Shown here in pieces: positions 5,207 to 42,894 of a stretch of 64,000 bases of DNA (position 1 is the first letter of the stretch; the number at the start of each line of letters is the position of its first letter). The stretch comes from Desulfoferula mesophila (GTDB lineage Bacteria; Desulfobacterota; Desulfarculia; Desulfarculales; Desulfarculaceae). The stretch covers positions 325,501-389,500 of the forward strand of contig NZ_AP028679.1 of assembly GCF_037076455.1 (NCBI RefSeq). Direction: 5' to 3'. The position numbers were made by a program, and so were the translations under genes. The notes below the pieces were generated by a model. That model saw only the letters and a program-made list of their open reading frames with translations. It had not been told where the DNA came from and made no database searches.

Positions 5207-7219
5207 ATGGTGTCGATTCGGCGGTGCTACTGGGTTTTGCGTCTTGATAGCCGGGGGATGATCGGCGTGGGCAAAGCGGGAATCTTGAGGTTGGTCACGC
5301 TGGGTTATGGCCGGGTAATCCCGCCCCGGGTAAACCGGGTGCTGCCCCGCCGACTGCGGGTTTTGGCCAAGTACGGCTTGAACGCCGTGAGCGGCGGCCC
5401 GTCGGCTCCCCGGGGGCCGGTGGAGTATCTCCACACCCATGAGCACGGGCGCCACAAGATCAAGGCCAGCGTGCGGGCGCGCCTGGCGCGTTTGCCGGAG
5501 TGCCAAACAAGCATCGCCGCCTACCAACAGGCCCGCGATCAACGCGATCCGTCCGCGTTGAAAATCGCGGTCTACGTGACCATTACCAATAATTACGACT
5601 CCATCAAGCTGCCGGAGAGCTTCAACCCCGGCCTGGACTACGTGTTGTTCAGCGACCGCCCGGTGGCCGACACCGGGGTTTATGAGGTGCGGCCCATCAC
5701 CTACCACAACGACGATCCCACCCGCACGGCCCGCTTCGTCAAGACCCATCCCCACGTCCTGCTCGGCGATTACGACGTGGCGGTGTGGGTGGATTCCAAC
5801 ATCATGCTTTTGGATGACATCTTTCCCCTGGTGCAAAAGTTCCTCGTCTCCGGCAAGCTGGTGGCCAGCAATCCCCATCCCTGCCGAAACACCCTGTATG
5901 AAGAAGCCCGCATCTGCCGCCGGTTCAAAACCGACGACGGCGATCTGATCAAAAATCAGGTTAAAACCTACCGGCGTCTTCAGTTCGCGCACAACGACTT
6001 GGTCGAGAACAACGTGATGATGTTCGACCTGCGCGATGAGCGGACGGGGCGTTTTTTGGACGCGTGGTGGGCCGAGATGGAGCGCGGCTCCAAGCGCGAT
6101 CAACTCAGCTTCAATTACTGCCTGGCGTCCCTGGGCCTGGATTGGCACCGGATTACCGACCGCGCGGCCCCGGTACTCGACCACCCCTGCTTCGCCCTGA
6201 TGGTGCACGATCACGCCCAGGGCCCGGCCCAGGAGCTGGTGGAGGCCCTGGGGACTGGATTGGTGGACCCCTACGCCGGCCCCGGCTTCGCCGGACTGCG
6301 CGACGCCCGTGTCCGGGCCCATAGCCGGCGGGCCATCGACATCGTCGTCTGCGTGCACGACGCCTTGGACGACGTGCGGCGCTGCCTGGATTCGGTGGCG
6401 GCCAAGCGCGCGGGCGACCGGCAAAAACTCATCTTGATCGACGACGGCTCCGGACCGGAGACGGCGGATTACCTGCGGGGTTTCGCCCGGGGCAAGGACT
6501 GGGTGACCCTGCGGCGCAACGAGGCGGCCCGCGGCTTCAGCGGCGCGGTAAACCAGGGCCTGGTCCTGTCCAGCGGCGAGTTGGTCATCGCGCTAAACAG
6601 CGACACCGTGGTTACCGACGGCTGGGCCGAAAAGATGGCCGACGCGGTATTTTCCACTCCCGGCGCGGGTTTGGTGGGGGTCATGTCCAACGCCGCCGGC
6701 TACCAGTCCCTGCCCGATCGCACCGGAACCCGGCACCAAACCGCCATAAACCCGCTGCCGCCGGGCATGGGCCCCGACGATCTGAACCGTTGGTGCGAAC
6801 AATGGGCCGGGGCGGACAGCCTGCCCCTGGTCCCCCTGGTGCACGGCTTTTGCCTGGGTTTCACCCGCCAGGCCCTGGAGCGCGTGGGCCTTTTGGACGA
6901 GGAGGCCTTCCCCGGAGGTTACGGGGTGGAGGACGACTACACCATGCGGGCGGCGGACGCCGGAGTCCTGGCGGTGCTGGCCGGGCACACCTACGTCTTT
7001 CACGCCAAGTCCAAAAGCTATGCTCCGGCGCGGCGAGCGGAGTTCATGCGCCGGGGCCTGAGAACGCTGGGGCACAGGCACGGCTCCCATCGCTTGGTTC
7101 GGGCCATGGCCAGCATGGCCGGCAATCCCTTTTTGGGGCGAATGCGACGCAGGGCCGCTGAACTCTACACGGGGGACAATCAGGCCCGGCCAGAGGCGCC
7201 CTCCCGGTGGGGGCGATAG
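5207..7219 (+). CDS. Fusion of DUF616 glycosyltransferase-like domain and family 2 glycosyltransferase
   Basis: About 670 residues. Residues about 120-350 match the DUF616 (TOD1/MUCI70-like) fold: KIAVYVTITNNYDSIK, LDYVLFSDRP, the DxN-type VWVDSNIMLLDD and a terminal FALMVHDHA. Residues about 375-650 are a GT-A family 2 domain: IDIVVCVHDALDDVRRCLDS, LILIDDGSG, an ALNSDTVV metal site and GGYGVEDDYTMRA. The start is uncertain: ATG 5207 or ATG 5258, neither with a good ribosome site. It lies in a polysaccharide cluster and probably adds two sugars to a surface glycan. Both domains look intact. Confidence 0.82.
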   Translation: MVSIRRCYWVLRLDSRGMIGVGKAGILRLVTLGYGRVIPPRVNRVLPRRLRVLAKYGLNAVSGGPSAPRGPVEYLHTHEHGRHKIKASVRARLARLPECQTSIAAYQQARDQRDPSALKIAVYVTITNNYDSIKLPESFNPGLDYVLFSDRPVADTGVYEVRPITYHNDDPTRTARFVKTHPHVLLGDYDVAVWVDSNIMLLDDIFPLVQKFLVSGKLVASNPHPCRNTLYEEARICRRFKTDDGDLIKNQVKTYRRLQFAHNDLVENNVMMFDLRDERTGRFLDAWWAEMERGSKRDQLSFNYCLASLGLDWHRITDRAAPVLDHPCFALMVHDHAQGPAQELVEALGTGLVDPYAGPGFAGLRDARVRAHSRRAIDIVVCVHDALDDVRRCLDSVAAKRAGDRQKLILIDDGSGPETADYLRGFARGKDWVTLRRNEAARGFSGAVNQGLVLSSGELVIALNSDTVVTDGWAEKMADAVFSTPGAGLVGVMSNAAGYQSLPDRTGTRHQTAINPLPPGMGPDDLNRWCEQWAGADSLPLVPLVHGFCLGFTRQALERVGLLDEEAFPGGYGVEDDYTMRAADAGVLAVLAGHTYVFHAKSKSYAPARRAEFMRRGLRTLGHRHGSHRLVRAMASMAGNPFLGRMRRRAAELYTGDNQARPEAPSRWGR

Positions 7220-7389
7220 CCAAGAACGGTATGATTTTGAGGCATTAGTGCCTGGACAATATAGCGCTTACCCCCTAGACTTGTCCAAGTTCGGCCAAGC
7301 CGGGGGGATGCGGCGTAACTGAAACGGCTGACTATAAAAAAATGCTCCGCACCGCCAGGTGCGTTAGAACCAATGTAGGGGAGGCACTC

Positions 7390-11044: not shown

Positions 11045-11881
11045 CTAGGGGAGCGGGCCGGTTGGTCCCTGCCAGAAGTTTTCATCCAGGATTATTTTGA
11101 TCCGCCGCTCTGGCTGGCCGGGGTTGGCCAGGACGGCCCACACCTCCGGGGACCCGGTCAATGGCAGGCGCACCAGGAACGAGGCCAGGGTGCGGGTGCC
11201 CTGGGGCCGGGAGCCGGTGCGCCACAGGCTGTTGTCCGGCCCGGCCCCCCGGTCCTGGCTCAGCCTCTGGAATTCCTCCAGGGTCAACGGGCGGGCCGCG
11301 GCGGCCAACAGGGCCTCCACCTGCGCCTGGCGGGCGTGGCTGCTCAGGGCCGGGCGCTGGTTGAACCCGGCCAGGTCGGGGCTTTGATAGTGGTTGGTGT
11401 GGGCCAGCTCTCCCTGGCGGGCGCTGGTGATGCGCGCCTGCCCGCCTGGGGCTATCTCCACCAAGGCGATCTGGCGGGCGTCGGCCAGCAGATAAAAGCG
11501 CGGCCCCAGGCCCTGGAACATCCAGTCTTGGTCCAGCACCGCCTGCACCGAGGCGAAGCCGGACAACAGGCGGCGGCTGATGCCCGGCGGGCCGCCGCGC
11601 CGGTTCTTGGGCAGGGCCGAGGCCGAGGCGCTCAGGACCGTGAGCCCGGCCTGGTTCACCCCGGCCCGCACCCCCCAGCCCTTGCGGCCCCCGGCCATGA
11701 GGGCCAAGTAGGCCAAGCCTCCCCGGGGGCGCACCAACTCCAGTCGACCGGGGCTGTCCGGGGTCCAGTCGCGGTTCTTGGCTGCCAGAGCGCCGCCCCC
11801 GGCCACCCCGGAGCCCACCGCCGCCCACAGGGTGCAGGCTCCGGCCGGGGCCGCCATTACCAGGGCCAGGAGGAGGGCCAC
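11045..11881 (-). CDS. Exported C45/AAT-family Ntn hydrolase
   Basis: 278 residues. A hydrophobic leader ending APAGA is followed at once by CTLWAAVGSGVAGGGALAAKNRDW. An N-terminal Cys exposed by cleavage plus the NRDW motif is typical of acyl-CoA:6-APA acyltransferase-like (peptidase C45) hydrolases, which act on amide bonds. The start is a GTG 28 nt after the preceding stop, because no ATG is available in frame. The upstream in-frame codons would give a basic ARRGFIW n-region, so translation may begin earlier at a non-standard codon. It is the last gene of a leftward group with the flavoprotein and CorC-like genes. Substrate unknown. Confidence 0.7.
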   Translation of the reverse strand: MALLLALVMAAPAGACTLWAAVGSGVAGGGALAAKNRDWTPDSPGRLELVRPRGGLAYLALMAGGRKGWGVRAGVNQAGLTVLSASASALPKNRRGGPPGISRRLLSGFASVQAVLDQDWMFQGLGPRFYLLADARQIALVEIAPGGQARITSARQGELAHTNHYQSPDLAGFNQRPALSSHARQAQVEALLAAAARPLTLEEFQRLSQDRGAGPDNSLWRTGSRPQGTRTLASFLVRLPLTGSPEVWAVLANPGQPERRIKIILDENFWQGPTGPLP

Positions 11882-11909
11882 CGCCCAGATGAAGCCGCGT
11901 CTGGCCGTA

Positions 11910-13280
11910 TCAGGCCTTCAATTTAGAGGCCAGCCGCCCGGCGGCGAACTCGCTGATCTCGCCCAGGCAGGGGTGGATGTAGGGAATGGAGGCGATGTCG
12001 GCCGCCGTGGCTTTCATCTTGATGGCCACGGCCATGTCGTGGATCATCAGCGAGGCCTCCGGGGCCACCAGCTCGGCCCCCACGATGCGCCCGCTGCCCT
12101 TTTCGCCCCGGATGCTCATGTAGCCGCGCACCCGCTCCGGGTAGGTCTTGGCCGGGCCCATGTCGCCCAGGTCGTAGTCGGCCTCCAGGCAATCCAGCCC
12201 GGCGGCCCGGGCCTGCTCCAGGCTCAGCCCCACCCGGGCGAACTGGGGGTCGGTGAACACGGCCGTGGGCAACACCCGGTCGTCGATCTCCCGAGGAGCC
12301 TCGTGGGTGGCGTTGTATCCGGCGGTCTGGCCCTGCAACACGGCCAGGTTGACCACCATGTTCCAGCCGGTGACGTCGCCCGCCGCGAAGATGTGGGGCT
12401 GGCTGGTGCGCATGTGGCGGTCCACCGCCACCTCGCCCCGCTGGCCCAGGGTCACCCCGGCGGCCTCCAGGTTCAGGCCCGCCACGTTGGGCCGCCGCCC
12501 CAGGGAGAGCAACAGGGCCTGGGCGCTCACGCTCACCTCTTTGCCCTGGTGCTCGAAGAAGGCGGTGACCTTCTCGCCTTCCCGTTGCACCCGCTTGAGC
12601 TCGGTGCCGGTGTAGATCTGGGCCCCGTCCTCGGCGAGGGCGTCGGCCAGAATGTGCCCATAGCGGTGATCGACCTTGCTCATCAGGTGCTCGGATCGCT
12701 GCACCATCGTGGTGGCCACCCCCAGGCGCGCCGCCGCCTGGGCCAGCTCCACCGCCTGGGTCCCCCCGCCCAACACCAGCAGGGACTGGGGCAGCTCGGC
12801 CAGGGCCATGAAGGCCGCCGAGTCCAGGTAGCCGCTTTCGGCCAGGCCGGGCACCGGGGGCACCACCTCGGCGCTGCCGGTGGCGATGACGATCTTGGCC
12901 GCGCTGATTTTTTGGCCAGCCACCTCCACGGTGTGGGGGTCCAGGAAGCGGGCGGCTCCCCGGTAGAGCTGAAGGCCCTGCTTCACCTTGGCCTCCACGC
13001 TCTCCACCCGGCCTCCGGCCAGGTAATCCACCACGCCCTTGGTGAATTGGTGCAGCGCGGGGTAGGCGGCCCGGCCGCTCACCCCCCTGGCCTTCACCTG
13101 GGCCGCCCCGTGCAAAAGAGTCTTGGATGGCATGCACCCGGCCAGGATGCACAGGCCGCCCAAACGGCCTCCCTCGGCCATGCCCACCTTGGCTCCCGTC
13201 TTCATGGCCGTGGTGGCCGCGGTGAATCCGCCGCTGCCGCCCCCGCCGATCACCATCAGGTCCAGATCAAAGGTGCTCAC
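11910..13280 (-). CDS. FAD-dependent pyridine nucleotide-disulfide oxidoreductase (dihydrolipoamide dehydrogenase-like)
   Basis: 456 residues. FAD site LMVIGGGGSGGFTAA, redox disulfide in GGLCILAGCMPSKTLL (C-x4-C), NAD site LLVLGGGTQAVELAQAAA, second FAD motif IFAAGDVTG, and a C-terminal dimer region with HPCLGEISEFAAGRLA, where the usual His-x-Thr/Ser appears as HPCLGE. Family members include lipoamide dehydrogenase, mercuric reductase and soluble transhydrogenase. There is no N-terminal HMA domain and no C-terminal Cys pair, arguing against MerA. Its ATG overlaps the TGA of the upstream CorC-like gene (ATGA), so they are translationally coupled. The true substrate is unknown. Confidence 0.85.
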   Translation of the reverse strand: MSTFDLDLMVIGGGGSGGFTAATTAMKTGAKVGMAEGGRLGGLCILAGCMPSKTLLHGAAQVKARGVSGRAAYPALHQFTKGVVDYLAGGRVESVEAKVKQGLQLYRGAARFLDPHTVEVAGQKISAAKIVIATGSAEVVPPVPGLAESGYLDSAAFMALAELPQSLLVLGGGTQAVELAQAAARLGVATTMVQRSEHLMSKVDHRYGHILADALAEDGAQIYTGTELKRVQREGEKVTAFFEHQGKEVSVSAQALLLSLGRRPNVAGLNLEAAGVTLGQRGEVAVDRHMRTSQPHIFAAGDVTGWNMVVNLAVLQGQTAGYNATHEAPREIDDRVLPTAVFTDPQFARVGLSLEQARAAGLDCLEADYDLGDMGPAKTYPERVRGYMSIRGEKGSGRIVGAELVAPEASLMIHDMAVAIKMKATAADIASIPYIHPCLGEISEFAAGRLASKLKA

Positions 13281-42474: not shown

Positions 42475-42573
42475 CTAATCTATAACTTGCGAACCGTCTC
42501 TGCCGGCGGTGACTTGCGCGAGACTTTCGTGGGTGGTCAGTTGGGGCTTGTCGTATTCCTTCTTGCTGGTCAT
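42475..42573 (-). CDS. Lasso-type RiPP leader peptide, copy 1
   Basis: 32 residues, ATG 42573 to TAG 42475, with AAGGAGA upstream. MTSKKEYDKPQLTTHESL leads to AQVTAGRDGSQVID. The spacing Y-x2-P-x-L-x9-T-x-G equals the lasso-peptide leader recognised by the RRE protein B1, with Thr at -2 and Gly as core residue 1. The core GRDGSQVID has Asp at position 9, a permitted ring-closing residue, but no tail beyond it, so a normal lasso cannot form. No cyclase or peptidase genes are visible nearby. Nearly identical to copy 2, 220 bp away. Confidence 0.72.
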   Translation of the reverse strand: MTSKKEYDKPQLTTHESLAQVTAGRDGSQVID

Positions 42574-42700
42574 GGCGTCTCCTTTTCGTGTTCGCATAGT
42601 GCAGGGCATTTTAAATCGGCAAGGCAAGCGCGGCCGCGAACCGGCCAAACGCCAAGTTGGTCAACCTAGCCCACGTCCCAAGTCCACAAGCGGATTATAA

Positions 42701-42793
42701 TTACCTCTCCGAACCGTCTCTGCCGGCGGTGACTTGCGTGAGACTTTCGTGAGAGGTCAGTTGGGGCTTATCGTATTGCTTTTTGGGGGACAT
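42701..42793 (-). CDS. Lasso-type RiPP leader peptide, copy 2
   Basis: 30 residues, ATG 42793 to TAA 42701, with AAGGAGA upstream. MSPKKQYDKPQLTSHESL leads to TQVTAGRDGSER. Same leader rule as copy 1, but the core GRDGSER is shorter and lacks an acidic residue at positions 7-9 (Glu is at 6). Identity to copy 1 extends through the ribosome site and most of the coding region and stops in the last codons, so the tails have diverged after a duplication. It is preceded in the same direction by an exported protein gene at 42895-43209. Confidence 0.72.
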   Translation of the reverse strand: MSPKKQYDKPQLTSHESLTQVTAGRDGSER

Positions 42794-42894
42794 GGCGTCT
42801 CCTTTTTATAATTCCAACAGTATAGTGCATATTCACGCGGCCGGGCAAGCGTGGCCGCCTCGTCCCCGCCGGGTCCATGGGCTAGGCGTCATGT

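Follow-up and report, generated by a model that had tools for sequence, protein, structure and literature searches.

The systems described so far that come closest to the peptides of this study are the linear polyphosphorylated peptides (LPP; lppAKBSDN of Paenibacillus alginolyticus, Bacillota), in which the kinase LppK phosphorylates Ser3 in the core of a linear peptide (PMC13381572, Nat Commun 2026), and the phosphorylated lasso peptides of the paeninodin/Bsf type, to which belongs BsfK of Bradymonas sediminis, a kinase that phosphorylates Ser3 of a lasso precursor with the help of B1 (PMC10368454). LPP share with the family described here a discrete RRE, a YxxP leader in common with lasso peptides, an HprK-like kinase, the absence of a cyclase (hence a linear product) and, in many loci, an NTP-transferase. 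They differ from it in the peptidase, which is a SipW-like (archaeal-type) signal peptidase (LppS) instead of B2, and in the precursors, which are 35-200 aa long with long cores (45 aa in LppA) and Ser3, in contrast to the short cores found here. The LPP core set also has an MsbA-like exporter and lists neither a B12 radical-SAM nor a DUF362 protein. In the case of paeninodin/Bsf, the B1, B2, HprK-like kinase and leader (YxxPxL, with T or I at position -2) are shared, and the phosphorylation of Ser with B1 help and the removal of the leader by B2 would have their counterparts here, but these systems possess the cyclase C, the Asp8 acceptor and the tail, all three of which are missing from the present family. 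Two NCBIfam models are similar at the level of the leader, namely NF033521 (lasso_leader_L3), matched by 10 of 34 family members, and NF033528 (lasso_cyano), matched by 23 of 34, in both cases with E up to 0.1; both models are silent on any short-core, cyclase-free system.

The window, i.e. the whole 64,000-nucleotide stretch analysed (G000:C1:325501-389500), belongs to the 4.48 Mb, single-contig genome of Desulfoferula mesophila (G000). As the first-pass annotation had claimed, it contains a tandem pair of genes for peptides with a lasso-type leader (Table 1); both frames are present, the Y-x2-P-x-L-x9-T-x-G spacing is exact in both, and profiles support them. The nominal core of peptide 1 has nine residues, with Asp9, and that of peptide 2 has seven, with no Asp/Glu at positions 7-9. 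The sequence AAAAGGAGACGCC before the ATG of either gene makes a good ribosome-binding site. When an HMM of the leader alone is built on 44 peptides from other lineages, leaving out the D. mesophila genome and its genus, it finds the two peptides at genome-wide E-values of 5.7e-5 and 6.6e-4 (25.4 and 22.0 bits), the top score among ten shuffled windows being 7.9 bits. With NF033528 they score 18-19 bits, under its cut-off of 33.

Table 1. Positions of the predicted genes and sites in the window, in the D. mesophila genome and in related loci.
Feature	Location	Position	Strand	Remarks
Precursor peptide 1 gene	window	42475-42573	minus	MTSKKEYDKPQLTTHESLAQVTAGRDGSQVID; predicted; 32 aa; leader MTSKKEYDKPQLTTHESLAQVTA, short nominal core GRDGSQVID with Ser5
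Ribosome-binding site, copy 1	window	42579-42586	minus	AAAAGGAG, 5 bases before ATG; read from sequence
Precursor peptide 2 gene	window	42701-42793	minus	MSPKKQYDKPQLTSHESLTQVTAGRDGSER; predicted; 30 aa; leader MSPKKQYDKPQLTSHESLTQVTA, short nominal core GRDGSER
Ribosome-binding site, copy 2	window	42799-42806	minus	AAAAGGAG, 5 bases before ATG; read from sequence
Weak promoter-like site	window	42819-42848	minus	TTGCCC-18-TATACT, upstream of copy 2
Lone precursor gene	D. mesophila genome	290.55 kb		protein search
Second RRE/HPrK locus	D. mesophila genome	~582-592 kb		HPrK-like kinase, PqqD-type RRE, two NTP-transferases, MsbA-like exporter, sulfotransferase, glycosyltransferases
PqqD-type RRE of the second locus	L035 (G000:C1:578000-593000)	6839-7342	minus	C-terminal extension ...SAYAPPTIETYSDMQELLLIDPVHEVDDTGWPNKGSDAN, leader/precursor-like
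DUF362 protein, predicted LarA-fold	D. mesophila genome	1102145-1103266	other strand than operon	near operon, beyond flippase gene
HPr-kinase-like protein	D. mesophila operon	1104713-1105726
B2 leader peptidase, lasso-type (transglutaminase-like)	D. mesophila operon	1105707-1106231
RRE protein B1 (PqqD-like)	D. mesophila operon	1106232-1106522		96 aa
B12 radical-SAM enzyme	D. mesophila operon	1106497-1107942
Five tandem precursor genes	D. mesophila genome	1108133-1109027	opposite to adjoining operon	protein search, translations
DUF362 protein	L071	11565-12497
DUF362 protein	L179	8569-9492
DUF362 protein	L017	4146-5267
Precursor array	L142	8815-10273
Second radical-SAM homologue	L073 (G021:C109)	11852-13201

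The two peptides are 79% identical over the 29 residues compared, and the two copies are a local duplication, 83% identical across 149 bases, ribosome-binding sites included. A run of 29 bases finishing at the core Ser codon is the same in both copies, whose ends diverge from there on, and codons 1-29 show 6 replacement and 2 silent differences. Two copies alone would not prove the coding status, and the argument is carried by the wider family. The promoter-like site upstream of copy 2 (one found vs 0.4 expected by chance) is no evidence of function. The neighbouring genes encode an amino-acid permease, a small secreted protein and a HerA/DUF87 ATPase, with no obvious RiPP connection, and no RNA families or tRNA genes were found near the peptides.

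The pair had been described as having no maturation genes nearby. This holds for the window, but not genome-wide, as an RRE, a B2 and their operon lie 740 kb away. The protein search gives eight such peptides in the genome, i.e. six beyond the window pair, five of them in tandem and one alone; a ninth match (3661302, E 0.88) lies within a long frame and was discarded. The eight peptides have 30-32 aa, and M1, K4, K5, Y7, P10, L18, T22 and S28 are invariant among them. The tandem five adjoin the operon, in which the genes of the radical-SAM enzyme (rSAM), B1, B2 and the HPr-kinase-like protein (HPrK) abut or overlap. B1 matches PqqD with 55.2 bits (match at 1106247-1106447), and B2 reaches 61.3 bits with NF033537 (cut-off 33); the Cys and His of B2 are invariant. 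The genome search for C, B1 and B2 proposed by the first-pass annotation thus returned the latter two but not a lasso cyclase. D. mesophila has three full-length homologues of Asn synthetase, which score 237, 221 and 67 against the 525-bit lasso cyclase cut-off, pass the AsnB model and are, by their scores, AsnB or EPS amidotransferases. No NTP-transferase is found in the 1.105 Mb cluster; the only two of the genome sit, like the MsbA-like exporter, in the 582-592 kb locus. The LPP-type signal peptidase (TIGR02228) has no match in the D. mesophila genome and none in 9 of the 14 family genomes. In the sister species G007 (82% complete), a single peptide of this kind occurs and B2 was not detected.

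The precursors collected number 53, of ~30 residues each, with the lasso-type leader Y-x2-P-x-L-x9-T; Thr occupies position -2 in 50 of them and Gly core position 1 in 39. The cores are 5-13 residues long (one of 32), with a median of 8 (n=53). Ser is present in 52 of the 53 cores, vs ~23 expected at 6.5% Ser, usually at position 4 or 5, and the remaining core has Thr. The excess is reproduced with a leader-only profile built from other loci, which speaks against an artefact of the search model. Beyond Ser and small residues, the cores vary in almost all respects. An Asp/Glu at core position 7-9 together with a tail occurs, on paper, in a single core of the 53, which is not that of a window peptide, whereas the cyclase-bearing loci of the same phylum (L127, L128, L129, L130, L133) combine a tail of 7-14 residues with Asp/Glu at core position 8. 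Asp9 of peptide 1, taken earlier for the ring-closing position, is incidental. The cores had also been called stunted, which is the wrong word, because a short core with Ser is what members of the family normally have, the five operon-side precursors included; judging from the sequences, they represent a different design. L142 has up to seven precursors in a single array, in which Met or Ala sometimes replaces Thr(-2) and two cores share the end LGCTRF; no B2 is seen on this 12 kb contig.

Homologues of the peptides, whose lack, or a lack of RRE proteins, was named in the first-pass annotation as speaking against its proposal, exist well outside D. mesophila, and this species itself has RRE and B2. 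The genome G021 (same class, other family) carries RRE, B2, HPrK, four short peptides, rSAM (36% identical, E 7e-99) and DUF362, with two additional peptides on other contigs, while G091 has six tandem peptides and the same genes plus an NTP-transferase. A second close rSAM homologue in G021 (36%; L073) has ABC transporter genes and an AMP-ligase-like gene as neighbours, and peptides, B2 and HPrK are all absent nearby. In a phylum sample of 395 genomes, seven match the peptide profile and all seven have B2 over the cut-off, vs 25 of 395 overall (hypergeometric p = 1.7e-9). Four of the seven (G225, G275, G349, G388) are ordinary lasso loci with a cyclase, because the leader profile cannot separate the two kinds.

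A scan with the rSAM alignment, using one genome per species, gave a clean split between 15 close loci (L135-L147, L149, L179) and 57 distant ones. In twelve of the former, rSAM comes together with DUF362, and the addition of the reference loci L017 and L071 gives 14 family loci (L179 is the G091 record again; L143 and L144, with rSAM alone, and L145, with rSAM beside a cyclase-type lasso locus, were left out of the count). Among the 14, HPrK is found in 12, B2 in 12, B1 in 10, an NTP-transferase in 8 and a cyclase in none; some of the absences are contig ends. No transporter is conserved across these loci, the MsbA-like exporter included. With the peptide profile, as many as 7 peptides are detected in a family locus, and the 57 distant loci give no match; they are likewise without matches to the leader-only HMM and without B1, B2, HPrK or DUF362. 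The gene set thus recurs in Thermodesulfobacteriota, Bacillota and others, its hosts (mostly MAGs) including Syntrophomonas, other Bacillota, Syntrophaceae and further deltaproteobacteria. In the B2 tree, the family and the cyclase-bearing groups are split by one branch (support 100/99), and the kinases divide in the same way, with the exception of the second D. mesophila kinase (L035), which falls on the family side. In L145 (a Desulforapulum autotrophicum MAG), a radical-SAM enzyme of the same B12 subfamily adjoins an Asn-synthetase-like cyclase, HPrK and RRE; this may be a lasso-type locus with a borrowed radical-SAM enzyme.

In respect to the enzymes, the kinase was compared as a profile with known structures and matches those of HPr kinase/phosphorylase at 1e-10. 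The D. mesophila operon kinase is divergent (20.6 bits with the Pfam HPr kinase model, under the 33.3 cut-off) and was assigned via its relatives; the assignment follows from the profile search, the single-sequence structure model reaching a pLDDT of only 32. ScmC of the SynChlorMet cassette (TIGR04249 and relatives) is the nearest NCBIfam model to this kinase and was rejected (25 bits vs a 125-bit cut-off); no other Scm families appeared in the operon scans. The rSAM profile matches AprD4, OxsB and TokK. As for DUF362, Pfam clan CL0471 holds it together with the LarA superfamily (DUF2088) (PMC11770544). When the L179 member is modelled with AlphaFold (pLDDT 88), all 17 matches of the model at E <= 0.001 are LarA-family structures, at 15% identity and a TM of 0.5 at best. 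In sequence, DUF362 weakly matches malate racemase Mar2 (E 0.82), and its His and Lys aligned in this way are invariant in 14 of 14 members. The DUF362 proteins of L071, L179 and L017 are thus predicted to fold like LarA (nickel-pincer racemases); the D. mesophila protein is 28% identical to the reference member. LarC (PF01969) is present in 10 of the 14 family genomes, but it says nothing on nickel-pincer use, because all five sister genomes tested that are without the system carry it too. The literature searched holds no report linking DUF362 to RiPPs.

The family does not consist of class II lasso peptides, as it has the leader, B1 and B2 and lacks the cyclase, the acceptor and the tail; nor is it LPP as defined, the LPP peptidase being absent. 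It works like both until the last steps, and can be described as RRE-dependent, kinase-bearing, lasso-related RiPPs, a combination not described in the literature searched. With a probability of about 0.73, we read the window genes as outlying precursor genes of such a multi-precursor, lasso-related RiPP system, which would have no macrolactam cyclase and a linear product. B1 would bind the leader (YDKPQL...T) in trans, and the HPr-kinase-like protein would phosphorylate the conserved core Ser (Ser5 of GRDGS), a likely target by analogy since LppK and BsfK act on a core Ser. The B12 radical-SAM enzyme and the LarA-fold DUF362 protein may alter the core further, and B2 would cut after T-A, leaving a linear peptide of 7-9 residues; we infer this product as well as its function and the order of the steps. 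The operon at 1.105 Mb most likely processes the window peptides. Precursors outside the clusters occur in several genomes (G000, G021, G441, G442, G454), so that processing in trans looks normal and the window pair would be a normal case and no relic. The evidence thus points to the first of the two proposals of the first-pass annotation, in which precursors are processed in trans and the product is not a lasso; the second, a leader serving as a signal for some other purpose, is unnecessary.

It is unlikely that the peptides serve instead as carriers, on whose core Ser, or a phosphate attached to it, a sugar or small molecule is assembled before its release, the core itself not being the product. 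The variability of the cores in nearly everything except Ser and small residues would suit such a role, as would the many precursors per genome, the NTP-transferase in 8 of 14 loci and the small substrates of enzymes structurally related to the B12 radical-SAM and LarA-fold proteins, but the presence of B2 suggests that the core peptide is set free.

Slightly less probable again is the processing of the window peptides by the second RRE/HPrK locus. Its RRE exceeds the PqqD cut-off (60 bits), it has an HprK-related kinase and an MsbA-like exporter, it holds both NTP_transf_5 genes of the genome, and its gene set is as described for LPP, minus the LPP peptidase. However, B2 is absent from this locus, its RRE bears a leader-like C-terminal tail of its own, and the nearest relatives of the window peptides in the genome adjoin the 1.105 Mb operon, which leaves the second locus as a possible but less likely partner. 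This RRE, found in a polysaccharide locus beside the HPrK-like kinase, the NTP-transferases, the sulfotransferase and the MsbA-like exporter, is, from its extension, possibly an RRE fused to its own substrate.

The view of the window peptides as decaying lasso precursors, left after the loss of maturation genes, is improbable and largely refuted. Asp9 of copy 1 and the ragged ends of the two copies past the shared Ser could be taken as its traces, but the same short cores occur in the five precursors beside the intact operon of the same genome and across phyla, the genome retains the maturation genes, and the precursors of the same-phylum cyclase loci differ in their acceptor and tail. That the two frames are chance or non-coding repeats resembling a RiPP leader is very improbable, since their shortness and the surplus of replacement over silent changes between the copies are outweighed by independent profile matches (genome-wide E 6e-5 and 7e-4, against a null below 8 bits), by the ribosome-binding sites of both frames and by the six further copies in the genome.

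As a preferred reading, the cyclase-free system of outlying and clustered precursors implies that the lasso leader and the RRE/B2 machinery are separable from lasso topology, with B2 present where the cyclase is not and the family defined by Ser and not by a ring acceptor. Since B2 and the lasso leader are used here without a cyclase, these systems will be mislabelled if annotation takes a "lasso leader" peptide or a B2 gene to mark a lasso cluster. More tentatively, and with the odds somewhat against it, the family may be a RiPP class undescribed in the literature searched, found in Thermodesulfobacteriota and Bacillota. Its Ser-bearing core of 5-13 residues would be modified jointly by three enzymes, namely a LarA-fold member of the nickel-pincer superfamily, a B12 radical-SAM enzyme and a kinase guided by the RRE, and scattered precursors would be matured in trans. 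To our knowledge, no RiPP pathway with a LarA-superfamily enzyme was known before, and if this reading is true, it would be the first. Two questions are made testable: what happens to one short peptide at the hands of a B12 radical-SAM enzyme, a LarA-fold protein and an HprK-like kinase, and whether scattered precursors are matured in trans.
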